From assembly GCF_000020485.1 (NCBI RefSeq), contig NC_011899.1, positions 221,501-285,500 of the forward strand: 64,000 bases of DNA, given 5' to 3'. The stretch comes from Halothermothrix orenii H 168. Lineage in GTDB: Bacteria > Bacillota > Halanaerobiia > Halanaerobiales > Halothermotrichaceae. The translations under genes were made by a program, and so were the position numbers. Below the pieces are notes generated by a model, which saw only the letters and a list, made by a program, of their open reading frames with translations, was not told the origin of the DNA and made no database searches. Position 1 is the stretch's first letter. Every line of letters starts with the position of its first letter. Shown here one piece after another: positions 28,070 to 42,834 of the stretch.

Positions 28070-28098
28070 TTGACAAAAATTAAAAATTCTTGTATAGT
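28070..28098 (+). promoter_or_regulatory. Promoter of the ecf-truA-ribosomal protein block
   Basis: -35 TTGACA (28070-28075), 17-nt spacer, -10 TATAGT (28093-28098). The -10 overlaps the upstream edge of the rplQ remnant, so the block gained a promoter where it was separated from its ancestral operon. Confidence 0.75.
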
Positions 28099-28176
28099 TA
28101 TAGTGTACTAGTTAAAATGTATCCGCGTCGGGGAGATGCTGCTGAAAAAGCTATAATCGAACTTGTTGAAGAATAG
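28093..28176 (+). pseudogene. Remnant of the 3' end of rplQ (ribosomal protein L17)
   Basis: The open frame ending in TAG at 28174-28176 reads YSYSVLVKMY and then PRRGDAAEKAIIELVEE. This matches the C-terminus of bacterial L17 (pattern Y-T-R-x-x-K-x-x-P-R-R-G-D-x-A-x-x-x-I-I-E-L-V). Only about 27 codons remain; the upstream frame hits TAA at 28081. In many Firmicutes rplQ lies immediately before ecfA1, exactly where this remnant sits. A 19-aa peptide could start at ATG 28117, but I see no ribosome site. The intact rplQ must be elsewhere because it is essential. L17 identity is from recognition of the motif. Confidence 0.85.
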
Positions 28177-28192: not shown

Positions 28193-29014
28193 ATGAGCCT
28201 GGTTGAAGCCAAGGGCGTAGGGTACAGTTATCAGGAAGCCGGAACGGATGAACCAGCTTTAAAAAATATAGATCTGACTGTGGAGAGTGGCGAATTTGTC
28301 GCTATTATTGGTTCCAATGGTTCCGGTAAATCTACCCTGGCCAGATTACTTAATGTTTTGCTGGTCCCTACTGAAGGGGAAATACTGATCGATGGCTTAA
28401 AAACTTCCGAAAAAGAAAATATATGGGAAATAAGACAAAAAGTGGGCATTGTATTCCAGAACCCGGATAACCAGCTGGTTGCGACCACTGTTGAGAATGA
28501 TGTGGCTTTTGGTCTGGAAAACCTGGGAGTACCCAGTCGTGAGATACGTCTCAGGGTAGACAATGCCCTGAAAATGGTCGGAATGAATGGGTTTCAGGAA
28601 CATGAAACCCATAAATTATCTGGAGGGCAGAAGCAAAGGGTTGCTATTGCCGGGGTTATAGCCATGGAATCCGATTGTATCGTACTGGATGAACCTACAG
28701 CCATGCTCGACCCCAGGGGTCGGAAAGAAGTAATGGATACAGTTACTTATTTAAATAAAGAAAAAGGGATAACAATTATTCATATAACCCATTTTATGGA
28801 GGAGGCTGCCCTGGCTGATAAAATATATGTTATGCATCAGGGCCAGATATATAAAAGTGGAACTCCCAGGGATATATTTCAGGATGTTGAAGGATTAAAA
28901 AGTGTTAATCTTGATGTTCCCCAGGTGGTTGAGCTGGCAAACAATCTCAGGAAAGCCGGTATGACTGTTCCGAGAATATTATCGATAGATGAGTTGGTGA
29001 GTTGCTTATGTTAA
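28193..29014 (+). CDS. ecfA1: ECF transporter ATPase A1
   Basis: A 273-aa ATPase of the energizing module shared by energy-coupling-factor vitamin and metal transporters. Walker A GSNGSGKSTLARLL, signature LSGGQKQRVAIAG, Walker B CIVLDEPTAMLDP, and H-loop HITHFMEEA are intact. Start ATG 28193 (GAGCAGGTG upstream) gives MSLVEAKGVGYSYQ; the TTG at 28163 lies inside the rplQ remnant. Overlaps ecfA2 by 7 bp. Confidence 0.93.
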   Translation: MSLVEAKGVGYSYQEAGTDEPALKNIDLTVESGEFVAIIGSNGSGKSTLARLLNVLLVPTEGEILIDGLKTSEKENIWEIRQKVGIVFQNPDNQLVATTVENDVAFGLENLGVPSREIRLRVDNALKMVGMNGFQEHETHKLSGGQKQRVAIAGVIAMESDCIVLDEPTAMLDPRGRKEVMDTVTYLNKEKGITIIHITHFMEEAALADKIYVMHQGQIYKSGTPRDIFQDVEGLKSVNLDVPQVVELANNLRKAGMTVPRILSIDELVSCLC

Positions 29015-29859
29015 TCCAGCTTAAAGATGTTTCTCACATTTACAGTGGACAAAATGAAAAAGCACTTGAGTCTGTAAATCTCAGGATTCAAAGTAATGAA
29101 TTTATCGGGATTGTTGGGCATACCGGCTCCGGCAAGTCCACCCTTGTTCAGTTATTTAATGGATTGATTAAACCGAGTGAAGGCAAGGTTTTTATAGAGG
29201 GGATAGATATACACCAGAAAAAGGTCAGTAAAAGAGAAATCAGACAGAAAATAGGACTGGTTTTTCAGTATCCTGAACATCAACTCTTTGAAGAAACGAT
29301 ATATGATGAAGTGGCCTTTGGTCCCCGTAATTTAGACCTTTCTGAAGAAGAAATTAAAAAAAGGGTTATTCAAGCTTTATCACTGGTAGGTATGGATTAT
29401 GAAACATATAAAGATAGGTCCCCTTTCCATTTAAGCGGTGGTCAGCAACGGAAAATAGCTATTGCTGGTGTTCTGGCCATGATGCCAGAAGTTTTGATTT
29501 TAGATGAGCCAACCGCGGGCCTTGACCCCAGGGGCAGGGAACAGCTTATAAAATTGCTGAAACAGTTGCATCGGGATTATAAAATGACAGTTATCCTCAT
29601 ATCACATCGGATGGAGGAAATTTCACAGTTATCTAACCGGGTGTTGGTATTAAGCCGTGGTAGAATTGTAATGGATGGTAAACCTGAAGAGGTATTTACC
29701 CGGGTTGATGAAATCAGAAAGCTCGGATTAGACCTCCCACAGATAACGGAAGTTTTATGGGAATTAAAAAACAGAGGGTTACGGGTTAGAACAGATATTT
29801 TTAATGTTGAAGAAGCAACCCGGGAAATAATTACAAAAATGAGGGAAAGCCAATGTTAA
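29008..29859 (+). CDS. ecfA2: ECF transporter ATPase A2
   Basis: A 283-aa partner ATPase that forms a heterodimer with EcfA1. Walker A GHTGSGKSTLVQLFNG, the Q-loop VFQYPEHQLFEETIYDEVAFG diagnostic of EcfA2, signature LSGGQQRKIAIAG, and LILDEPTAGLDPRG are clear. ATG 29008 is chosen over TTG 29002 because GGTGAG upstream is better spaced. Ends 7 bp into ecfT. Confidence 0.93.
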   Translation: MLIQLKDVSHIYSGQNEKALESVNLRIQSNEFIGIVGHTGSGKSTLVQLFNGLIKPSEGKVFIEGIDIHQKKVSKREIRQKIGLVFQYPEHQLFEETIYDEVAFGPRNLDLSEEEIKKRVIQALSLVGMDYETYKDRSPFHLSGGQQRKIAIAGVLAMMPEVLILDEPTAGLDPRGREQLIKLLKQLHRDYKMTVILISHRMEEISQLSNRVLVLSRGRIVMDGKPEEVFTRVDEIRKLGLDLPQITEVLWELKNRGLRVRTDIFNVEEATREIITKMRESQC

Positions 29860-30644
29860 CTGATATAACAATTGGCCAGTATATACCTGGAAATACAATT
29901 GTCCATAATCTTGACCCACGGATAAAAATAATAATTAGTATAATATTAATTACGGCCCTCTTTTTTATAAAATCTTTTACTGGATTTTTATATTTTTTAT
30001 TATATATTACTTTTATTATTTTTCTGGCAAAATTACCGGTTAAAAGAATAATCAAGGGTTTAAAACCTATTCTTTTTCTGGTGATTTTGACCCTGCTTTT
30101 ACATGTACTATTCACACGGGGCGGTAAAGTATTGTGGCAATGGTGGGTTATAAGGATTGATGAACATGGACTTTTCACCGGTCTATTTATGGCCAGTCGT
30201 ATTTTATTATTAATTGCTTTTACCTCGTTACTTACCCTGACAACATCCCCATTACAGCTTACAGATGGGATTGAGTACTTACTTTCTCCCTTTAAGAGGA
30301 TTGGGGTACCTGCCAATGAACTGGCTATGATGATGACTATTGCTTTACGTTTTATACCAACCCTTATGGAAGAAGCAGAAAAAATTATGAAGGCCCAGAA
30401 GGCCCGTGGGGCTGATTTTGAAAGTGGTAGTATTGTTCAGAGAGCCAGGAATCTAATACCCCTGTTGGTTCCCCTGTTTATCAGTGCCTTCAGGAGAGCT
30501 GATGACCTGGCCCTGGCGATGGAGTCCCGGTGTTACCGTGGAGGAGAAGGGCGGACCCGTCTCCATGAGTTACAAATACAGAGAAGGGATATATTCAGCC
30601 TCATTATGTCAACTATTATTGCCATTTTTATTAGTTTTTTCTAG
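29853..30644 (+). CDS. ecfT: ECF transporter transmembrane subunit T
   Basis: A 263-aa membrane scaffold linking the ATPases to substrate-binding S components encoded elsewhere. About five helices are visible. The two coupling motifs contain Ala-Arg-Gly or similar: KAQKARGADFESGS and MESRCYRGGEGRT. The N-terminus IGQYIPGNTIVHNLDPRIKI is typical. Overlaps ecfA2 by 7 bp. Confidence 0.94.
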   Translation: MLTDITIGQYIPGNTIVHNLDPRIKIIISIILITALFFIKSFTGFLYFLLYITFIIFLAKLPVKRIIKGLKPILFLVILTLLLHVLFTRGGKVLWQWWVIRIDEHGLFTGLFMASRILLLIAFTSLLTLTTSPLQLTDGIEYLLSPFKRIGVPANELAMMMTIALRFIPTLMEEAEKIMKAQKARGADFESGSIVQRARNLIPLLVPLFISAFRRADDLALAMESRCYRGGEGRTRLHELQIQRRDIFSLIMSTIIAIFISFF

Positions 30645-30799: not shown

Positions 30800-31540
30800 A
30801 TGGAGCGAAATATTAAGATAACCGTAGAATATGATGGAACCAACTATAGTGGCTGGCAAATCCAGAATAATACCCCGGAGACAATACAGGGAGTATTAAG
30901 TAAATGTCTTTTTGATATAAATAAGTCGCCAGTTAAATTGATAGGGGCCAGCCGGACAGATGCCGGGGTTCATGCCCGGGGCCAGGTGGCCAATTTCAGG
31001 CTTAAAGTGGGAATCCCGGTAGAAAGAATTCCCCTTGCTTTAAACAGTAAACTACCACCTGATATAGTATGTAAAGATGCTGAGGAAGTAACTGAAGATT
31101 TTCATGCTCGTTTTGATGCCAGGGGGAAAAGATATATCTATCGAATTCTTAATAGTGAATATCCATCTCCTTTCTTACGTAATTATACCTATTTTATCCC
31201 CCATAATCTAAATATAGATAAAATGAGAGAGGCAGGTTCGCTTTTAATTGGAGAACATGATTTTGCCTCTTTTCAGGCATCCGGTGGATCCAATAAAACC
31301 ACTGTGAGGACAATAACAAAATTAGATATATATCGTGACCAGTATCAAATAAAAATAGAAGTATGTGGTAATGGTTTTTTATATAAAATGGTCAGGATAA
31401 TAGCAGGTACTTTGATTGAAGTCGGGTTAGGGAAAAGAACTGTAAAGAGTGTTGGTCAGCTATTGGAGATAAAGGATAGAGATAGAGCAGGTTTTACTGC
31501 ACCACCCCGGGGGTTAACCCTTATTGAAGTATTTTATTAA
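30800..31540 (+). CDS. truA: tRNA pseudouridine synthase A
   Basis: A 246-aa enzyme making pseudouridine at positions 38-40 of the anticodon stem. The catalytic Asp is in GASRTDAGVHARGQVANF (about residue 54). YDGTNYSGWQIQ at the N-terminus and GNGFLYKMVRIIAGTL near the C-terminus are diagnostic. ATG follows GGTGGGGGATTGAG. It lies between ecfT and rplM, the usual Firmicute order. Confidence 0.96.
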   Translation: MERNIKITVEYDGTNYSGWQIQNNTPETIQGVLSKCLFDINKSPVKLIGASRTDAGVHARGQVANFRLKVGIPVERIPLALNSKLPPDIVCKDAEEVTEDFHARFDARGKRYIYRILNSEYPSPFLRNYTYFIPHNLNIDKMREAGSLLIGEHDFASFQASGGSNKTTVRTITKLDIYRDQYQIKIEVCGNGFLYKMVRIIAGTLIEVGLGKRTVKSVGQLLEIKDRDRAGFTAPPRGLTLIEVFY

Positions 31541-31692: not shown

Positions 31693-32121
31693 GTGTCCAC
31701 CTATATGGCCAAACCTCATGAAGTAGAACGCCAGTGGTATGTTGTTGATGCCACTGATAAAGTGTTGGGTCGTTTAGCCACAAAGATTGCAGAAATATTG
31801 AGGGGTAAACATAAACCAACCTTTACACCACATGTTGATACCGGTGATTATGTTATTGTTGTAAATGCAGACAAGGTAAAATTAACCGGTCGGAAATGGG
31901 AACAGAAAAAGTATTACCGCCATAGTGGGTATCCCGGTGGTTTGAAGGAAATGAGCTATGAAAAATTACTTCAAACTAAGCCGGAATTGATTATTGAAAA
32001 GGCTGTCAGGGGAATGTTACCCCATAATAGACTGGGAAGAAAGATGATTAAGAAGTTAAAGGTTTATGCAGGTCCGGACCATCCACATGAGGCCCAGAAA
32101 CCTGAAAAACTAGAACTCTAG
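31693..32121 (+). CDS. rplM: 50S ribosomal protein L13
   Basis: A 142-aa large-subunit protein. Diagnostic stretches are [46 protein letters not shown] and [18 protein letters not shown] start preceded by AAGGAGGGAT. It is co-transcribed with rpsI, 19 bp downstream. Confidence 0.98.
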
Positions 32122-32140
32122 CCAGAAAGGAGGAACTTAA

Positions 32141-32536
32141 ATGGCGGCAGAGGTACAATACTGGGGTACCGGTAGACGTAAAACTTCAACTGCCAGGGTC
32201 CGTTTAGTACCCGGTAGTGGTAAGATTTTAATAAATGGAAAAGATGTTAAGGAATATTTTGGACGGGAAACCTTGATTAAAGATTTAAAGTCTCCTCTTG
32301 AATTAACCAACAACCTGGATAGTTTTGATGTTCTGGTTAATGTTAATGGGGGTGGCTTAAGCGGTCAGGCCGGGGCAATTCGTCATGGAATTGCCAGGGC
32401 TTTATTAAGAGTCGACAAGGATTATCGTAAACCACTTAAAAAAGCCGGTTACCTGACCAGGGACCCGAGAATGAAAGAAAGGAAAAAATACGGTCTCAAA
32501 AAGGCCCGTAAAGCGCCACAGTTCTCCAAAAGATAA
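32141..32536 (+). CDS. rpsI: 30S ribosomal protein S9
   Basis: A 131-aa small-subunit protein with [39 protein letters not shown] and the conserved C-terminal KAPQFSKR, whose final Arg reaches the decoding site. ATG follows AAAGGAGG. Ends the transcript at the next terminator. Confidence 0.98.
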
Positions 32537-32550
32537 TATATTACCTATTA

Positions 32551-32581
32551 AAAAAAGAGAGGGATGTCCCTCTCTTTTTTT
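32551..32581. terminator. Terminator after rpsI
   Basis: Stem AAAAAAGAGAGGGA / TCCCTCTCTTTTTT with loop TG; runs of A and T on both sides. Strong. Confidence 0.92.
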
Positions 32582-32830
32582 AATTGTATACAGGTATTTA
32601 AACGGAGAAAGGATTTAATCTTAAGACTACTTGAGACTATTAAAAAAGGATATTTTCTGAACTTACCTGGGGGTACCAAAATTCTGGACCCAATCCTGTA
32701 TTGCCATAAAACACATAAAAATACTGAAAAATACAGAGCAATAATATTATATATAGCCACCCAAATAAATAAAATAGAATAGAGGAAATAATAACTTTAA
32801 CCAGAAATATAAAAATGGAGGTGGTAATAT

Positions 32831-33658
32831 ATGGGTGTAAGAATGGCTGCTCTGGCTCCACACCCCCCGATTATAATCCCCGAGATAGGAGGCAGGGAAC
32901 GGGACAGGGTAAAAAAGACGATAACGTCTATGACTCGCCTTGCGGAAGATATTAAAAATGTAGATCCCGATATTTTGATTACTATAAGTCCCCATGGGCC
33001 TGTTTTTTCAGATGCTATCAGTATTATATACCAGGAGGAGTTAACAGGTGATTTTTCTGAATTCGGGGCCCCGGAAGTAAACTTTAAAATAGATATTAAT
33101 CTTGAGCTAATAGACAGATTAAAGAAAAATGCTGATAAAGAAGGTATAGATGTATTTACCTTGAACAAACAGAGTTTACAGAATTACAGTATTTCTCCCC
33201 GTCTTGACCATGGTGTTATGGTTCCTCTGTATTTTATCCAGGAAGCCGGTGTCAATAAACCTGTTTTACCATTAACAATGGGCCTTCTGGAGTATGAAAC
33301 ACTGTATAAGTTTGGGTACATTATAAATAGGACTTTAGATGAAATGGATTTGAAGGCGGTTATTGTTGCCAGTGGTGATCTATCCCACCGATTAAAGCCT
33401 GGTGCCCCTGCCGGATACAGTCCTGTTGGCAGGAAGTTCGACCAGAAGTTAATTGAATTATTAGAAAAAAAGTCTTACCGGAAGATACTGAAACTTGATA
33501 AGGGCTTAATCGAGAAGGCGGGAGAGTGTGGGCTTAGACCGTTAATTATAATGCTGGGGGCTATACAGAATTTAGAACTTGACGTAGATATTATGTCCTA
33601 TGAAGGCCCCTTTGGGGTAGGGTATGCAGTAGTTGAATTTTATCAGATGGAGGGATAA
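32831..33658 (+). CDS. AmmeMemoRadiSam protein: LigB/MEMO-type dioxygenase-like
   Basis: A 275-aa protein with the class III extradiol dioxygenase (LigB) fold. Candidate metal-binding His residues are visible in LAPHPPIIIPEIG, ISPHGPVF, LDHGVMVPL and SGDLSHRL. It is first in a three-gene operon with an AMMECR1 protein and a radical SAM enzyme, the conserved AmmeMemoRadiSam set. In many relatives this domain is fused to AMMECR1; here they are separate and 3 bp apart. The reaction is not established, and dioxygenase activity in an anaerobe is unlikely to be its true role. ATG follows TGGAGGTGG. Confidence 0.85.
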   Translation: MGVRMAALAPHPPIIIPEIGGRERDRVKKTITSMTRLAEDIKNVDPDILITISPHGPVFSDAISIIYQEELTGDFSEFGAPEVNFKIDINLELIDRLKKNADKEGIDVFTLNKQSLQNYSISPRLDHGVMVPLYFIQEAGVNKPVLPLTMGLLEYETLYKFGYIINRTLDEMDLKAVIVASGDLSHRLKPGAPAGYSPVGRKFDQKLIELLEKKSYRKILKLDKGLIEKAGECGLRPLIIMLGAIQNLELDVDIMSYEGPFGVGYAVVEFYQMEG

Positions 33659-33661
33659 AGG

Positions 33662-34186
33662 ATGTCAAAACTGAGTAGCTATATAACTGGACTTGCCAGA
33701 AAAACAATCGAAGTTTATATTAAAGAAGGACGTCAAATAAAAGAGTTGACCGATCTTCCCGAGGAACTCAAAAAAAGAGCAGGTGTTTTTGTATCCCTAA
33801 AAAAAGATGGTAAATTACGGGGATGTATCGGTACATTTTTACCAACCCAGGACAATATTGCCCAGGAAATAATAAAAAACGCCATAAGTGCCGCTGTCCA
33901 CGACCCTAGATTTGGGCCAGTCAGGGTAGAGGAATTAAATAAAATAGAGATAAGTGTCGATATTTTAACAGAGCCGGAAAAAGTTAATAACCGGAATGAA
34001 CTTGATCCTCATAAATATGGGATTCTGGTAAAAAAGGGGCACAGGACTGGTCTCCTTCTCCCTGACCTTGAGGGGATAGATTCAGTGGAAAAACAACTGG
34101 AGATCGCCAGATTGAAAGCTGGAATAAGACCAGATGAGGAAGTTGAGATATACAGGTTTCAGGTAAAAAGATACAAAGAGAGGTAA
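33662..34186 (+). CDS. AmmeMemoRadiSam system protein A (AMMECR1 domain)
   Basis: A 174-aa AMMECR1-domain protein. The invariant LRGCIG motif is in KLRGCIGTFLP, followed by NAISAAVHDPRFGPV and EISVDILTEPEKV; ILVKKGHRTGLLLPDLEG matches the family. AMMECR1 is conserved from archaea to humans without a fully defined biochemical role. The Cys in the motif is a possible catalytic or modified residue. It is 5 bp from the radical SAM gene. Confidence 0.92.
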   Translation: MSKLSSYITGLARKTIEVYIKEGRQIKELTDLPEELKKRAGVFVSLKKDGKLRGCIGTFLPTQDNIAQEIIKNAISAAVHDPRFGPVRVEELNKIEISVDILTEPEKVNNRNELDPHKYGILVKKGHRTGLLLPDLEGIDSVEKQLEIARLKAGIRPDEEVEIYRFQVKRYKER

Positions 34187-34191
34187 TATCA

Positions 34192-35181
34192 ATGGAAAAA
34201 GCCGGGTTCTACATAAAGATGGATAATGATAAAGTACAATGTCTGCTATGCCCCCATACCTGTGAAATTCCTGTCGGAGAAAAGGGCCGTTGTAAGGTCA
34301 GGGTAAATGAAAAGGGTGAATTAATTCTAAAAAACTATGGAGTCATTACATCTATGGCAATTGACCCTGTTGAAAAAAAACCATTATACCATTTCTATCC
34401 CGGAACCAGGATCCTGTCACTGGGGACATATAGTTGTAATTTTACATGTAAACACTGTCAGAACTGGCAGATAAGCCAGGAAAAACCCGAAGTTGTAACC
34501 AGCTATTCACCGAAAGAAGTGGCTGACCTTGCCCGGGATAAAAATGTAATCGGGGTGGCCTATACCTATTCAGAACCATCGATCTGGTTTGAATATGTTC
34601 TCAAAACAAGCCAGGTCGTCAAATCTAACGGGATGAAGAATGTCCTGGTGACCAATGGTTTTATAAATAAAAAGCCGCTCAAGGAGCTTATACCCTATAT
34701 AGATGGTATTAATATTGACTTAAAGGCCTATAATCCTGATTTTTACCAACGTATCTGTGGTGGCAAGTTAAAACCTGTTCTGGAAAATATTAAATATCTG
34801 CGGGATAAAGTCCATATTGAAATCACAACCCTTTTAATTCCTGGATTGAATGATTCGACCGAGGAACTTGAGGATATGTTTCAGTGGCTCAACAGTCTTG
34901 ATCCGGATATTCCCTTACATATAACAAGGTATTTCCCCAGATACAGGTTGAATCTGCCCCCGACTTCTATAGATGAATTAAAAGAAGCTTATGACCTGGC
35001 TAAAAGATATTTAAATTATGTATACCTCGGTAATATTAACCTTGATCAGGGCCGGGATACTGTGTGTCCCCACTGTGGTCAGGTTGTAATTGAAAGGAAT
35101 ATCAGAGTCATAAATAGAATTAAAGATGGGAGATGTCCCTGGTGTGGTCAGGAGATAAAAGGAGAGTTCAGGAATAAATAA
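34192..35181 (+). CDS. amrS: AmmeMemoRadiSam system radical SAM enzyme
   Basis: A 329-aa radical SAM protein. The cluster motif is CNFTCKHC (C-x3-C-x2-C, about 83-90). An N-terminal Cys set (CLLCPHTC, GRCKVR) resembles pyruvate-formate-lyase activases. The C-terminus has two CxxC knuckles (VCPHCGQ, RCPWCGQ) typical of this subfamily and likely zinc- or Fe-S-binding. It probably makes a radical-based modification on, or with, the two upstream proteins; the substrate is unknown. Last gene of the operon. Confidence 0.92.
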   Translation: MEKAGFYIKMDNDKVQCLLCPHTCEIPVGEKGRCKVRVNEKGELILKNYGVITSMAIDPVEKKPLYHFYPGTRILSLGTYSCNFTCKHCQNWQISQEKPEVVTSYSPKEVADLARDKNVIGVAYTYSEPSIWFEYVLKTSQVVKSNGMKNVLVTNGFINKKPLKELIPYIDGINIDLKAYNPDFYQRICGGKLKPVLENIKYLRDKVHIEITTLLIPGLNDSTEELEDMFQWLNSLDPDIPLHITRYFPRYRLNLPPTSIDELKEAYDLAKRYLNYVYLGNINLDQGRDTVCPHCGQVVIERNIRVINRIKDGRCPWCGQEIKGEFRNK

Positions 35182-35743: not shown

Positions 35744-36472
35744 TTAAAATTTGATAAATTCCCAACCATATATGTAAATAATATAGAAGGTATAGTAACC
35801 GGCCAGAAAGATAGATGGAGTGATTAACGACCTGGTTTTACGGTATAAGAAAATTGTTATAAAAGCAGCTATAAATTTAATTATAATTTGAGTAGGGCCA
35901 CTGGTTAACAGTAATATAGAATATGCAAATGAACTTATGATAAGTCCCGGGAAGGGTTTTAATTTTCCCAGTAAAGTCCTGTAAAATATGTTAATTAAAA
36001 GGAAGGCTTCACTTAAAGCAATAATAATGGTACCCGGGTAAATTATGATAACAGAAAAAATGCTATTAATAAAATGTTCCGGCTTATCAAAAGTATACAG
36101 GGGGTTAAAGTTAGACCCGGATAATGATTTATAACTTAAGGGGATATTTACAAGAAACAAAACAGCAAACAGTAGACTAAAGATAAGGGAAGTCCCCAGT
36201 AAAATTTCTTTTTTTAAATTTTTAGTAGAAAGGCCAAGTGTTCTAAAATCAACTCCATATAATGAAACAAGATAGAAGATTACCAGAGCAAGAAAAATTA
36301 ACCTGCCACTGATGACGAACAAAAAGTGAAATATACTTGTTAAAACCGGGGTGTAGGGGAATACCAGTCCCCTGGTCAGGTAACCAAAAGCAGCCATAAA
36401 GTACCAGAACCCCACAATAATAAGGATATCTTTATAGTTAATTTTATGTACATAAAGCGGTCTTTCTTTCAT
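35744..36472 (-). CDS. Polytopic membrane protein, possibly degenerate CPBP type
   Basis: A 242-aa protein with about seven membrane helices. The order of helices and the stretch ALSEAFLLINIFYRTLLGKL, followed by LIISSFAYSILLL, recall CPBP (Rce1-like) proteases. The EExxxR active motif is not present: S-E-A replaces E-E, and the His motifs are missing. It may be a non-catalytic relative. Start ATG 36472 follows AAAGGAGAG; the upstream GTG-like starts have none. Convergent with the zinc-ribbon gene. Confidence 0.6.
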   Translation of the reverse strand: MKERPLYVHKINYKDILIIVGFWYFMAAFGYLTRGLVFPYTPVLTSIFHFLFVISGRLIFLALVIFYLVSLYGVDFRTLGLSTKNLKKEILLGTSLIFSLLFAVLFLVNIPLSYKSLSGSNFNPLYTFDKPEHFINSIFSVIIIYPGTIIIALSEAFLLINIFYRTLLGKLKPFPGLIISSFAYSILLLTSGPTQIIIKFIAAFITIFLYRKTRSLITPSIFLAGYYTFYIIYIYGWEFIKF

Positions 36473-36818
36473 TTTTTTCTCTCCTTTCACCAATTAAAAT
36501 TTCGCTACAAGTTAATAAAATCCTCTTTTATCCACTATATTGGGGCATTCTGCTCACACCCATGTTAACCCGGGGTTTAAAAAATATTAATTTACTGTTA
36601 TATTTAAGCTACAAATAATTTATGATTTCAGAAGAATTAATTGTAGAAAGCCCTGACAAATCCTAAAAGAATATATAAATTAACTTAAGGAAAAAGCAGG
36701 TTTATTATATATTTTTATCGAAAATAGTAGTTGTTAAACAAAATATTAGTTATCTTGTTTTAAAACATAAATTTTAGTATAATAACTTCGTGGTTAAAAT
36801 TGATCAAGAGGTGAGATT
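36473..36818. other. Gene-free divergent intergenic region
   Basis: No ORF with a ribosome site is found in this AT-rich interval between the minus-strand membrane protein and the glmM fragment. The only clear signal is the glmM promoter at 36755-36783. Confidence 0.6.
36755..36783 (+). promoter_or_regulatory. Promoter upstream of the glmM fragment
   Basis: -35 TTGTTT (36755-36760), 17-nt spacer, -10 TATAAT (36778-36783). It lies 35 bp before the glmM ATG. After the fusion it may now drive the downstream efflux genes. Confidence 0.7.
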
Positions 36819-37439
36819 ATGGGTAAATTATTTGGAACAGACGGTGTCAGAGGAGTAGCAAACAAAGAACTTACAGGTGAACTGGCCTATAAACTGGGAA
36901 GGGCAGGAGGTTATTATTTAACCAGAGATTATAAGGGAGGCAAAAAACCGGTAGTTTTAATTGGTAAGGATACCCGGATTTCGGGTGATATGCTGGAAGC
37001 CGGGCTGGTAGCCGGTTTGACCTCTGCAGGCATTGATGTTATTAAGCTCGGTATTATTCCGACACCAGGGGTATCTTTTTTAACCTCAAGTCTTGATGTC
37101 CAGGGAGGGGTAATGATTTCTGCCTCTCACAATCCTATTGCCGACAACGGTATAAAGTTTTTTAACCAAAAAGGTTATAAACTTACCGATGAAATGGAGG
37201 ATGAGATTGAAAATTTAATTTTTAATAAACTGGAGACCATACCCTACCCCACCCATGAGAAGATCGGGGTAGTTGATTCTGCCCCTGAATATTACCATAA
37301 GTATGTTGATTATTTGAAGGAGACAGTTGACTCAGATTTTTCAGGACTGAAAATAGTTGTTGACTGTGCCAATGGAGCTGCCTATAAAGTTGCTCCAGAA
37401 GTTTTGAAAAAACTGAGGGCTGATGTCATGGTTATCAAC
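36819..37439 (+). pseudogene. glmM: 5' half of phosphoglucosamine mutase gene
   Basis: Codons 1-207 are a sound GlmM N-terminus: [15 protein letters not shown], the phosphoserine loop [17 protein letters not shown], and [17 protein letters not shown]. GlmM converts glucosamine-6-P to glucosamine-1-P for peptidoglycan and is normally about 450 aa. After VMVIN (base 37439) similarity stops; the frame continues only as LKRPKPVSS to a TAG at 37467-37469. The magnesium site (DGDxDR) and the C-terminal phosphate-binding domain are absent. The next bases belong to a TolC-like gene in another frame. The product should be inactive. Confidence 0.9.
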
Positions 37440-38140
37440 TTGAAAAGGCCAAAACCAGTTTCAAGTTAGCCCTTTTGAAATTCAGCAAAAGGCTGGAAAT
37501 AAATATAAAAGATGATATAATATTGAATATACCTGATGAACAAAAACTGGAAGAAATTAATTTGAGCTGGGAAGAAGTCTGGAATAGGGCTGTAGCAAGT
37601 GATACTAATATTGAGGTTATCAAGAAAAATATAGAACAGCAGGAGTACCTGGCTGAAGGGTTGTCCGGGATGGAACTGCCTACTGTCAATCTTTACGGTA
37701 AGGTCTTCTGGGATAAAGAAGAATTCCCTTCTGATTACCAGATAGGCTTAAACCTGAGTTATAATTTTAATACCTATAATAATAAAAGCAAAGGACTGGA
37801 GATAACGGGAATAGAAAACGGAATCCAGAGTTTAAAAGAGGAGTTAAAAAACAGGAGAAATGGTTTAAAGCTGGAGAGTATTGACCTTATTGAAAACCAG
37901 AAAACTATTAAAAAGCAAATTGGTTATTCCAGGGAAGCCATTGAACTTACCCGCCAGAAGCTTGAGATTGCTGAAATCCGGTATAAAACAGGTGTTGCAA
38001 CCCTGAGTGAGCTTTTGAACTATCAGATTGAATTAAGGGAACGTAAATCTGCCTATATAACGGAACTTACCAATTACTATAAAAACCTTTATTCTATAAA
38101 GCTCTTGATAGGTGAATTTCCTGAAGGGGAGGATATGTAG
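37427..38140 (+). pseudogene. 3' part of TolC-family outer-membrane efflux gene
   Basis: From about 37430 the third-frame translation reads [18 protein letters not shown] and continues to 38140 through long coiled-coil helices. REAIELTRQKLEIAEIRYKT and GVATLSELLNYQIELRER are typical of the second TolC repeat (R-Y-x-x-G-x-A-T-L-x-E-L-L). About 200 N-terminal residues, including the signal peptide and first repeat, are missing. An internal TTG (37475) could give 221 aa but no exported, complete channel. The adaptor gene starts 2 bp after its stop, so it was the first gene of a tripartite efflux operon. Confidence 0.85.
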
Positions 38141-38142
38141 AT

Positions 38143-39588
38143 ATGAAAAAAAAGATTATTATTCTTATATTGATAGTGGCTGTAATTGGCTCCAGTATTT
38201 ATATGATGAATAAAAAAGGTGGGAGCAAACAGGTTGCCGGGAATGTAAAACTTGTCAAAACCGTGGAGGCAAAGCCTGGTGAAATTATGACCAGGGTCCT
38301 GGCTGATGGTAATGTTACTTTTGAAAATGACAGGGATATTAAAGTCAAGGTCTCCGGCCTTGTTGAAAGGGTCTATATCGAGGAAGGGGATGAGGTAGCA
38401 GAAGGTGAGAAGATTATTAAAATCGATGGAGACCCTCTAAGGGATAATCTTGAACTTGCCAGATTAAGTTTAAAAGAGGCTTCAAAAAATTACGAAACCC
38501 TTGTTAGTAACTTTAAGAAGCAGGATAAAATAAATGAATTAAAGCTTAAAGAGGCCAGACAGAATTTAGAACTTGCCCGCTTATCACTCAATAAAGAAAA
38601 AGAGTCACTGGAATATAAGCTTAAGACCCTGCAGGATAAGATTGATGATGCTAAGAAGGCCCTTGATGAGGCCCGCAAAGAATGGGAAAAGCAGAAATAC
38701 CTTTTCCAGAATAAGGCTGTTGCTGAAAAGGCTGTTAAAAATGCAGAAAAAGCTTACCAGACAGCCCAGGATAACTATGAAGACCTCAAAGAAGAGCTCA
38801 AGTATTTGGAGCAAAAAACCATTCCGAGAACTATTGAACTGGCCAATCTGGAAGTGGGAAAAGCTGAAAACAGTCTGGAGCTTTTAAAGAATTCTCTGGA
38901 AAAAAGTAATATTACTGAAAATGACCTGGAACTGGCCCGGATAAAGATTGACAGGGCAAAAAAGAATATAGCTGATATTAAGGAAGATTTGAACAGATTA
39001 GAAACCCTGGCCCCGATAACAGGGACCATTGTCTCTCTGGAAATCAGGGAAGGCGATAAAGTTGTAGAAGGAACCACTGTCGGTAAAATTGCTGACCTTG
39101 AATCCTTACTTATAGAAGTTATGGTAGATGAAGTTGATGTCAATGAAGTGGCGGTAGGACAGAGTGTTACTCTAACCAGTGATTCTTTTGAGGATAAGCT
39201 TACAGGAGAGGTAATAAAAATAGACCCGGTTGCCACCAAGGTAGGCAATCTAAATAAATACAGGACACAGATAGTGGTTAGTGACCCTGAAGGTGTTTTA
39301 AAACCGGGTATGTTTGTTAATGCGGAAATCGTTACATCCTACAAAAATAATGTAATTACCCTGCCGCCCCTGGCAGTCCTGGGAGACGAAGATAAATATG
39401 TATATGTTGTTGAGGATGGTAAAGCTGTAAAGAGGCCGGTGGAACTCGGTCTACAAAACCTTACTAAAGTGGAAGTAAAAGGTGTTAAAGCCGGGGAACG
39501 GGTTATCATTGGACCATTTACTGTCCTTAAAGATTTAGAACCCGGGACACCTGTGTCTGATGTTACTGAAAGAAAAAAAGATAAATAA
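38143..39588 (+). CDS. Efflux periplasmic adaptor (HlyD/MacA-like)
   Basis: A 481-aa membrane-fusion protein. An N-terminal anchor (IIILILIVAVIGSSIYMM) is followed by a half lipoyl domain (VRVYIEEGD-like VERVYIEEGDEVAEGEKI). A long coiled-coil hairpin of about 110-270 (repeats of LELARLSL and KKALDEARKEWEKQK) follows, then the second lipoyl half (APITGTIVSLEIREGDKV) and beta-barrel. The long hairpin would dock onto a TolC channel, in keeping with a diderm envelope. It lies between the TolC fragment and the ATPase. Confidence 0.9.
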   Translation: MKKKIIILILIVAVIGSSIYMMNKKGGSKQVAGNVKLVKTVEAKPGEIMTRVLADGNVTFENDRDIKVKVSGLVERVYIEEGDEVAEGEKIIKIDGDPLRDNLELARLSLKEASKNYETLVSNFKKQDKINELKLKEARQNLELARLSLNKEKESLEYKLKTLQDKIDDAKKALDEARKEWEKQKYLFQNKAVAEKAVKNAEKAYQTAQDNYEDLKEELKYLEQKTIPRTIELANLEVGKAENSLELLKNSLEKSNITENDLELARIKIDRAKKNIADIKEDLNRLETLAPITGTIVSLEIREGDKVVEGTTVGKIADLESLLIEVMVDEVDVNEVAVGQSVTLTSDSFEDKLTGEVIKIDPVATKVGNLNKYRTQIVVSDPEGVLKPGMFVNAEIVTSYKNNVITLPPLAVLGDEDKYVYVVEDGKAVKRPVELGLQNLTKVEVKGVKAGERVIIGPFTVLKDLEPGTPVSDVTERKKDK

Positions 39589-39619
39589 AGGGGGAGTCCA
39601 GGATGGAGGTGAAATTAAA

Positions 39620-40360
39620 TTGTCCATAATAAAGGTATCAAATCTATCTAAAATATATGGTGAAGGTGAGGTAGCAGTCAAGGCTCTAAAGGAAGTATCT
39701 TTTGAGGTTGATGAGGGGGAATTTGTTGCCGTGATGGGCCCGTCTGGCTCGGGAAAGTCAACATTAATGAATATTCTTGGCTGCCTGGACACCCCTACCT
39801 CCGGGGAGTATTATCTTGACGGGGTTAATGTCAGCAGCATGTCTGAAAAGGAACTGGCAAAAATAAGAAACCTTAAGGTCGGTTTTATCTTTCAGACCTT
39901 CAATCTACTTCCCCGTTTTTCAGCCTTAAGAAATGTAGAACAGCCCATGATCTATAAAGGGGTCCCCCGTCAAAAAAGGTTAAAGATAGCCAGAAAGGCT
40001 TTAGAATCTGTGGGGCTCGGTGACAGGCTCCACCACAAACCTTCGGAACTTTCAGGAGGGCAATGCCAGAGAGTGGCCATAGCCAGGTCTCTGGTTAATG
40101 ACCCCCAGATAATTCTGGCAGATGAACCGACCGGTAACCTTGATAGCAAATCTGAAGAGGATATACTGGAAATCCTGAATGGTTTAAATGAAAAGGGGAT
40201 AACCATAGTTATGGTTACCCATGACCGGGTAGTTGCCAGTCATGCTCACCGTATAGTCCATTTTAAAGATGGAGAGATAATCAGGGAAGATAAAACACAG
40301 AACGGTATTAATAGAGAGACTGCTACCCGTTCCTGGAGGGATCGGGATGAAATTACTTGA
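39620..40360 (+). CDS. MacB/LolD-type ABC ATPase
   Basis: A 246-aa ATPase with Walker [16 protein letters not shown], signature [15 protein letters not shown], Walker [14 protein letters not shown]. The LolD/MacB hallmark is GxLDxPTSGxY ([11 protein letters not shown]). TTG 39620 is preferred as start: GGAGGTGA lies 8 nt upstream, and the longer frame from 39560 overlaps the adaptor gene. It energises the two permeases that follow. The C-terminal tail ([11 protein letters not shown]) overlaps the first permease by 14 bp. Confidence 0.93.
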
Positions 40361-41567
40361 GTATATTGGTCTTGCCCTGTATGAAATCTGGCATAATAAG
40401 GTCAGGACCTTTTTGACCCTGATTGGGGTCATTATCGGGATAGCTGCTGTAATTGTTATTATTTTTGTGGTCCAGGGGGCAGAGAGGTTTTTACTGGCTG
40501 AAGTTGAAAAAATAGCTCCTTCTGATGTTATCTATGCTTATGCCCGGTGGGACCGTGATACCAGACGGCCTATGGCTGGGTTGACCCTTGATGATATTGA
40601 GTATATTAAAGACAGGGAATCAGACATGATTAGAGCCATTGCCCCCCGGTATTATGGTAACAGTAAGATCAGACTTAATGGGGAAGAAAAGGATTGCAAC
40701 CTCATTGCTTCAACCCCCTCTATCTTTGATATATATGATGTAAGTATTGCCAGAGGAAGGTCCTTAACACGGCTGGATATGGAAGAATTAAATCAGGTGG
40801 TTGTCCTGAGTTATGATACAGCTGAAAAATTATTTGAAGGGGTTAACCCTGTTGGTAAGAAGTTAAATCTGTCCGGTCTTACTTTTACCGTCATCGGTGT
40901 CCTGGAGGAGGGGGAAAAGTCCATAATCCCTACTTCAGTAACAAATAATACGGTATTTATCCCTTTTAGTGTATTTGAAAGGATTTTTGATGTTCATAAC
41001 CGCTTTATCTTAATGGCCAGGCTAAAAGATAAATCTCTGGTCGATACAGGAATTAAGCGGGTACAACAATTACTGGACAGAAGGCATGGTATGGCAGACA
41101 ATGGGATGTCAAAGTTTCGAGTAAGTAGCTGGGTCTCAGGGCTTAAGGAAATAAGTATTATAAAGACGGTCCTGATTGTCTTACTTAGCGGGGTCGCCAG
41201 TATAACCCTTCTGGTGGCCGGGATTGGTTTAATGAACATTATGCTGGTTATTGTAACTGAAAGGACCCGGGAGATTGGCCTGAGGAAGGCCCTGGGGGCA
41301 ACAAACCGGGATATCCTCATTCAATTTATTATTGAATCCATTGTTCTCTGTATTGTTGGAGGTATTCTCGGGGTTATTGTAGGGTATCTCGGGAGTGAAG
41401 TTGCCCTCAATATTGCTAATAAATACATTAACTTTAGTTATAGTGTCCCAAGGTGGGCAGTTTTGCTGTCCCTGACCTTTACGACACTGGTTGGTCTCTT
41501 CTTTGGAATATACCCTGCCTATAAAGCAGCCCGCCTTAATCCCATAGAGGCGTTGCGTTATGAATAA
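40347..41567 (+). CDS. MacB/FtsX-type ABC permease 1
   Basis: A 406-aa permease. The first helix (FLTLIGVIIGIAAVIVIIF) is followed by a periplasmic domain of about 240 residues and three C-terminal helices, the MacB/FtsX plan. ITLLVAGIGLMNIMLVIVTERTREIGLRKALGA is the FtsX core segment (written partly: NIMLVIVTERTREIGLRKAL). NPIEALRYE ends the protein. Substrate unknown; macrolide, peptide or lipid export are all possible. Confidence 0.9.
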   Translation: MKLLEYIGLALYEIWHNKVRTFLTLIGVIIGIAAVIVIIFVVQGAERFLLAEVEKIAPSDVIYAYARWDRDTRRPMAGLTLDDIEYIKDRESDMIRAIAPRYYGNSKIRLNGEEKDCNLIASTPSIFDIYDVSIARGRSLTRLDMEELNQVVVLSYDTAEKLFEGVNPVGKKLNLSGLTFTVIGVLEEGEKSIIPTSVTNNTVFIPFSVFERIFDVHNRFILMARLKDKSLVDTGIKRVQQLLDRRHGMADNGMSKFRVSSWVSGLKEISIIKTVLIVLLSGVASITLLVAGIGLMNIMLVIVTERTREIGLRKALGATNRDILIQFIIESIVLCIVGGILGVIVGYLGSEVALNIANKYINFSYSVPRWAVLLSLTFTTLVGLFFGIYPAYKAARLNPIEALRYE

Positions 41568-41580
41568 GGTGGTGACATAG

Positions 41581-42834
41581 ATGAATTTAATGGAAACAAT
41601 TAGACTGGCCCTGGCCGGGGTTGGAAGTAATAAATTGAGGTCATTTTTGACCCTGTTAGGTATTATAATTGGAGTAACAGCAGTTATTCTGATGGTATCT
41701 CTGGGGAGTGGAACCCAGAAGGTTGTTAGTGGCCAGTTCAGTAATCTTCAGACCCGTCAAATATATATAGATGAAAACCATAATTTACCATACCATCTGC
41801 AGGGGCGGTTAAGTTTGCGGGACAGGGATTACCTTAAAGACTCTGTAATGGGTGTTGAAAAGGTCGTTCCCTTTTACCAGCTTTACACGGGGGTAAAGTA
41901 TGGTGATAATGAGCAGGAAGGCTGGGTTTATGGTATCGATCCTGCTTCACAGGAACTGATTAATGTAAATATAAGTTATGGCCGTTTTTTTGACCAGTCA
42001 GATATTGATAATAAAGAGCGGGTTGCTATAGTCGGGGAACAGTTGCTGGAAAGACTGGCGAGGACAGGAAATATGGTGCAACCACAACACGCCTCTACCC
42101 CCGATTATGCCTCAGCAGTCGGTAAATATATATATCTGTCTGGTAAGAAATTTATTATTGTTGGAGTTATGCAGGAATCCCAGAACATGATGTTTATTTC
42201 TAATCAATCGGTTCTACTTCCATACACCACTATCAGAGACCACTGGCGCCGGGAAACCAGATATGTAGATTTTTATCTGCTATCCTATGGTCCAGACGCT
42301 TCAGAGAAAGATACCCTGGAACAGGTAAAATATCTTATGGATAGAAAATACGGTAAAACCAGTACCGGGAAGAGTAAGTTTTACTTCCAGAGTCTTCAGG
42401 AAAATGTCAATATCATGACCAGGGTTTTTACTGTATTTACTTATGTGCTTGGTGGAATTGCTTCTATTTCCCTGCTGGTAGGCGGTATCGGGGTTATGAA
42501 TATTATGCTGGTTACCGTTAAAGAAAGGACCCGTGAGATTGGAGTAAGGCTGGCCATAGGAGCGACCAGGCAGGATGTTCAGAGACAGTTTTTAGCAGAA
42601 TCAGTCATCCTCTCTGTCGGTGGTGGTATTGTCGGGGTTTTAATGGGTAGTATTCTTTCATTTCTTGCCAATATGATCTTGAAACAGGTCTTCAACTGGT
42701 GGCAGGGATTTATTCCAGGGTGGGTTATTCTGCTATCCTTCGGGGTAACTACCGCCATTGGGGTTATATTTGGTTTTTATCCTGCCTATAAGGCCTCCAG
42801 GCTTGACCCCATAGAGGCTCTAAGATATGAATAG
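41581..42834 (+). CDS. MacB/FtsX-type ABC permease 2
   Basis: A 417-aa paralogue of the preceding permease with the same four-helix plan, 13 bp downstream. Shared segments include FLTLLGIIIGVTAVILMVSL, NIMLVTVKERTREIGVRLAI and DPIEALRYE. Two different permeases with one ATPase suggest a heterodimeric exporter. Its periplasmic domain is richer in aromatic residues than that of permease 1. Confidence 0.9.
   Translation: MNLMETIRLALAGVGSNKLRSFLTLLGIIIGVTAVILMVSLGSGTQKVVSGQFSNLQTRQIYIDENHNLPYHLQGRLSLRDRDYLKDSVMGVEKVVPFYQLYTGVKYGDNEQEGWVYGIDPASQELINVNISYGRFFDQSDIDNKERVAIVGEQLLERLARTGNMVQPQHASTPDYASAVGKYIYLSGKKFIIVGVMQESQNMMFISNQSVLLPYTTIRDHWRRETRYVDFYLLSYGPDASEKDTLEQVKYLMDRKYGKTSTGKSKFYFQSLQENVNIMTRVFTVFTYVLGGIASISLLVGGIGVMNIMLVTVKERTREIGVRLAIGATRQDVQRQFLAESVILSVGGGIVGVLMGSILSFLANMILKQVFNWWQGFIPGWVILLSFGVTTAIGVIFGFYPAYKASRLDPIEALRYE

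Follow-up and report, generated by a model that had tools for sequence, protein, structure and literature searches.

A recent 9.3-kb repeat with 100% identity was described from the genome of Halothermothrix orenii at positions 249,693–258,969 (Mavromatis et al. 2009, PMC2626281). In that paper the glmM fragment of the repeat is called a pseudogene, the ECF transporter genes are named as a cobalt transporter, and the first gene of the AmmeMemoRadiSam-type trio is named as an extradiol dioxygenase. PMC7661048, citing Reams and Roth 2015, discusses large tandem duplications that have no homology at their ends, together with the idea that these are afterwards remodelled into smaller fragments.

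The locus studied here is the same feature as the published repeat, with which it agrees in size, identity, coordinates and the glmM pseudogene, as well as in the genes for L13, S9, the cobalt transporter and the pseudouridine synthase. The published coordinates begin at an ATG of ecfA1 and end with the stop codon of the glmM pseudogene. The duplication itself is already known; what the present analysis adds is the precise position of its breakpoints and the damage done to the adjacent tolC gene. The orphaned end of rplQ, the breakpoints and the proposed mechanism come from the present analysis and were not found in the available parts of PMC2626281, the text of which gave no matches to TolC. 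With the remodelled tandem duplications of PMC7661048 the H. orenii segment has in common the direct orientation, the junctions without long repeats and the retention of a smaller fragment. Unlike them, it displays only the end product, from which we infer a 98-kb intermediate.

Extent and source of the duplicated segment

The window, i.e. the whole stretch of 64,000 nucleotides that was analysed, covers positions 221,501–285,500 of C1, the sole contig of the genome (2,578,146 bp). The segment duplicated in it (Table 1) was identical to its source in 9,325 of the 9,325 bp and had the same orientation, as seen both with blastn and in a letter-for-letter check. A whole-genome DNA search found exactly two copies of the segment in the H. 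orenii chromosome, separated by an offset of 98,184 bp. At the source the segment runs from codon 95 of a complete rplQ (114 aa; intact according to PF01196) to codon 207 of a complete glmM (449 aa). Both of these genes are partial in the window copy, and because they are whole in the left copy, this is considered the original. With no difference in 9,325 bp, the rule of three bounds the divergence of the copies at approximately 0.03%, provided that gene conversion does not homogenise them. The feature is far larger than positions 36819–38140, to which the original prediction had confined it; what had been noticed was the right edge of the exact duplicate.

Judged from the sequence, the truncated glmM is almost certainly the right-hand edge of a recent 9,325-bp segmental duplication and not the result of a deletion that fused two neighbours. 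An illegitimate deletion between adjacent glmM and tolC genes at a 10-bp repeat, which had been proposed as one explanation, would agree with the abrupt meeting of the two frames at 37438/37439, but all 9,325 bp to the left of the junction are a second copy, and at most 9 bp could have been shared. As a single event it was refuted by the genome search that found the two copies. Since intact glmM and glmS are present 98 kb away and the 9,325 bp are 100% identical, a simple deletion of this kind is excluded, with hardly any probability left to it.

The other proposed explanation, an assembly join, would mean that two false joins had put a second copy of the segment in this place. An exact repeat of 9.3 kb exceeds the inserts of a 3-kb library and can mislead an assembler, but the genome was assembled from 3-kb and 40-kb libraries together with 454 data, and according to its authors a detailed analysis of the sequence reads confirmed the duplication as real (PMC2626281). 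Such an error would, moreover, have had to drop the N-terminus of tolC from a finished genome. Given the authors' read check, it is very unlikely.

Among 150 sampled Bacillota genomes, two L13 genes were found only in H. orenii, while 146 genomes had one and none was detected in three. The source L13 region of H. orenii is located near C1:155,045, and also S9 is present twice. The duplicate L13 and S9 genes may explain some of the 1.02% contamination score of the genome. Downstream of the duplicate rpsI, at 32547–32584, there is a 38-bp sequence that matches its own reverse complement by 95%. It has a weaker relative of 62 bp at C1:2,470,504–2,470,565, and is probably a terminator-like sequence or a small palindromic repeat.

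Table 1. Features of the duplicated segment and its surroundings, with positions in the window.
Feature	Positions	Strand	Remarks
Promoter-like TTGACA-17-TATAGT left of the copy	28070..28098	+	Candidate from consensus scan, 11/12 matches; points into the copy
Duplicated segment	28114..37438	+	Exact copy of C1:151,430-160,754
Last part of rplQ (from codon 95/114)	28114..28176	+	Remnant orphaned where the copy begins
Duplicate ecfA1-ecfA2-ecfT (cobalt-type/ECF transporter)	28193..30644	+	ORFs identical to source; second ORF from 29002, third from 29853
Duplicate truA (tRNA pseudouridine synthase)	30800..31540	+	
Duplicate rplM (L13) and rpsI (S9)	31693..32536	+	
Duplicate AmmeMemoRadiSam-type trio of ORFs	32831..35181	+	ORFs identical in both places; by sequence recognition we take them to be dioxygenase-like, AMMECR1-like and radical SAM
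Duplicate membrane protein ORF	35744..36493	-	CAAX-protease-like by eye
Promoter-like TTGTTT-spacer-TATAAT upstream of glmM	36755..36784	+	Pattern match; copied along with glmM
glmM pseudogene	36819..37469	+	First 206-207/449 codons, then foreign residues to stop
5'-truncated tolC-family gene	37439..38140	+	C-terminal OEP repeat only (PF02321, 1.8e-15)
Membrane-fusion protein, ABC ATPase, two MacB/FtsX-type permeases	38143..42834	+	Intact; Pfam (first three genes), order kept in relatives

The glmM fragment and the right junction

The window copy of glmM is an ORF that starts with the ATG at 36819, follows GlmM perfectly to VMVIN, as had been predicted, and then continues into foreign sequence until the stop codon at 37467–37469. 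The C-terminal half of TolC comes next in a different frame and extends to 38140; the two frames had been described correctly. Also the predicted absence of the metal site and the C-terminal domain was confirmed: DGDADR, at residue 243 in the intact gene, is gone, as are domains III and IV, and only the serine loop (residue 102) is left of the features of a functional GlmM. A search of the whole genome located the intact glmM that had been expected to exist elsewhere, as the ORF C1:160,135–161,484. In the profile search of the genome, the match to the intact gene covered C1:160,147–161,469 and was above the curated cut-off, and the fragment gave a match at 258,331. The source gene has all four domains and is followed by its natural downstream neighbour, the GlmS ORF. 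The description of glmM as broken does not hold for the genome, as the essential gene is intact at the source and the window contains a spare truncated copy. With the apparent fusion explained as the border of a recent duplication that was already published, there is no break in an essential gene, and the function of GlmM should be unaffected.

The window agrees with the intact glmM as far as 37438 and not to 37439 as first stated; at 37439 the source has T and the window C (source GGTTATCAAT, window GGTTATCAAC). The suggested fusion at a 10-bp shared sequence was correct in that the frames meet abruptly, but not in the length of the sequence: with glmM identity stopping at 37438, any shared stretch could be at most 9 bp, and the parental tolC sequence has been lost. 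Within GGTTATCAAC the glmM parent shares at most GGTTATCAA, and the sequence of the tolC parent is gone from the genome. The G-Y-Q residues that had been assigned to TolC are glmM DNA read in another frame, and the aligned positions are unconserved in relatives. The possible short homologies consist of AAAATG at the left junction and at most GGTTATCAA at the right one. No close relative of the TolC fragment that could display the ancestral junction was found in the 84,980 genomes searched, and as the ancestral target sequence is also gone, short homology at the junctions is conjectural.

The target site and the exporter operon

To the left of the copy there are genes of an ArsR-type regulator, a CoA-disulfide-reductase-like protein and an alpha-amylase-like protein. 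The candidate promoter adjacent to the left end may once have driven the tolC operon. In a Halanaerobiales genome (G011, locus L028) the order of the genes is ArsR, CoA-disulfide reductase, hemerythrin, tolC, membrane-fusion protein (MFP), ABC ATPase, permease and permease, with no inserted block. The window agrees with this locus upstream in the ArsR and reductase genes and downstream in the exporter genes, which encode homologous proteins in the same order. TolC is full length (455 aa) in the G011 locus, whereas only its C-terminal half is present in H. orenii. This order speaks for the 9.3-kb block as a newcomer and for a tolC that was once whole in H. orenii.

Several other Halanaerobiales relatives (L068–L072) have the MFP–ABC–permease–permease set without a TolC-like gene directly upstream, and in some relatives TolC-like genes are found downstream of the exporter set instead. 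Relatives in which the TolC-like gene is downstream or absent, which are many, are therefore uninformative on the junction, and the varied placement indicates that the position of the channel gene is fluid in Halanaerobiales.

The predicted loss of the N-terminus of TolC was upheld, as the alignment of the fragment with the 455-aa relative is confined to the C-terminal half of the latter, and both the signal peptide and the first repeat are missing. One repeat is present in the fragment as against two OEP stretches in the relative, and the features of a functional TolC/OEP channel are in this respect incomplete. The first in-frame ATG, GTG or TTG of the remnant is the TTG at 37475, without an obvious ribosome-binding site. 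The genome was searched for a second copy of the truncated gene and, as had been proposed, for its N-terminus, and neither was found elsewhere; the only match was the single C-terminal one. The truncated tolC is probably dead.

A TolC-like gene at 546.8–548.0 kb was considered as a second copy of the truncated gene and rejected as a paralogue with two OEP repeats. In the region C1:546,759–548,793 the intact TolC-like protein with its two OEP repeats is followed by another, weak OEP match. This protein could serve the exporter with the truncated tolC.

The exporter genes are now located downstream of the copied glmM promoter region, in agreement with the original prediction. The predicted promoter upstream of the glmM fragment is probably their new upstream promoter. 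Any transcription of the remaining exporter genes would start in the copied glmM promoter region or at an internal promoter.

Origin and consequences of the duplication

At the left junction 249,613 adjoins 151,430, exactly as a tandem duplication of 151,430–249,613 would connect them. As read from the junctions, a route of two steps, tandem duplication and then internal deletion, appears rather probable. In the first step these 98,184 bp would have been duplicated in tandem through an exchange of rplQ with the intergenic stretch that precedes tolC. In the second, a deletion inside the second copy would have extended from glmM to the middle of tolC, removing 88,859 bp (approximately 88.9 kb) of redundant DNA together with the start of tolC. 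Both steps would have been illegitimate or short-homology events.

The same final sequence would be produced in one step if a 9.3-kb rplQ–glmM fragment had been copied or captured by template switching or end joining, with the start of tolC lost at the same time. Such an insertion competes with the two-step route only, and not with the duplication itself. It is favoured by both ends lying inside genes and by repeats no longer than a few bases, but it requires insertion and target deletion in a single event, and a duplication with later deletion accounts at least as well for the placement of the copy downstream and in the same orientation. We regard the one-step insertion as a possible but less likely origin.

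Two other modes of transfer were rejected. The segment ends have neither a target-site duplication nor terminal inverted repeats, as would belong to a transposon-borne duplication, and no transposase was recognised by eye among the ORFs of the segment. For a tRNA-linked insertion, the sole tRNA in the window is far away.

After the duplication, L13, S9, TruA and the ECF transporter would be present at double dosage. If the two copies recombined, the intact glmM and glmS would be lost, and excision by this route should therefore be selected against; re-duplication of the 98 kb should be easy. It is doubtful that the duplication has been kept as beneficial, either because L13/S9, TruA or the ECF transporter gain in dosage or because the exporter is rewired to the glmM promoter. 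If this were true, the promoter swap and the loss of tolC would be adaptive, and the exporter would make use of the TolC-like protein near 547 kb.

The damage to tolC is an unreported but ordinary side effect of the published duplication. The locus is a clean example of a duplication that brings each of two operons under the upstream DNA of the other, and also an example of supposedly single-copy marker genes (L13, S9) occurring twice.
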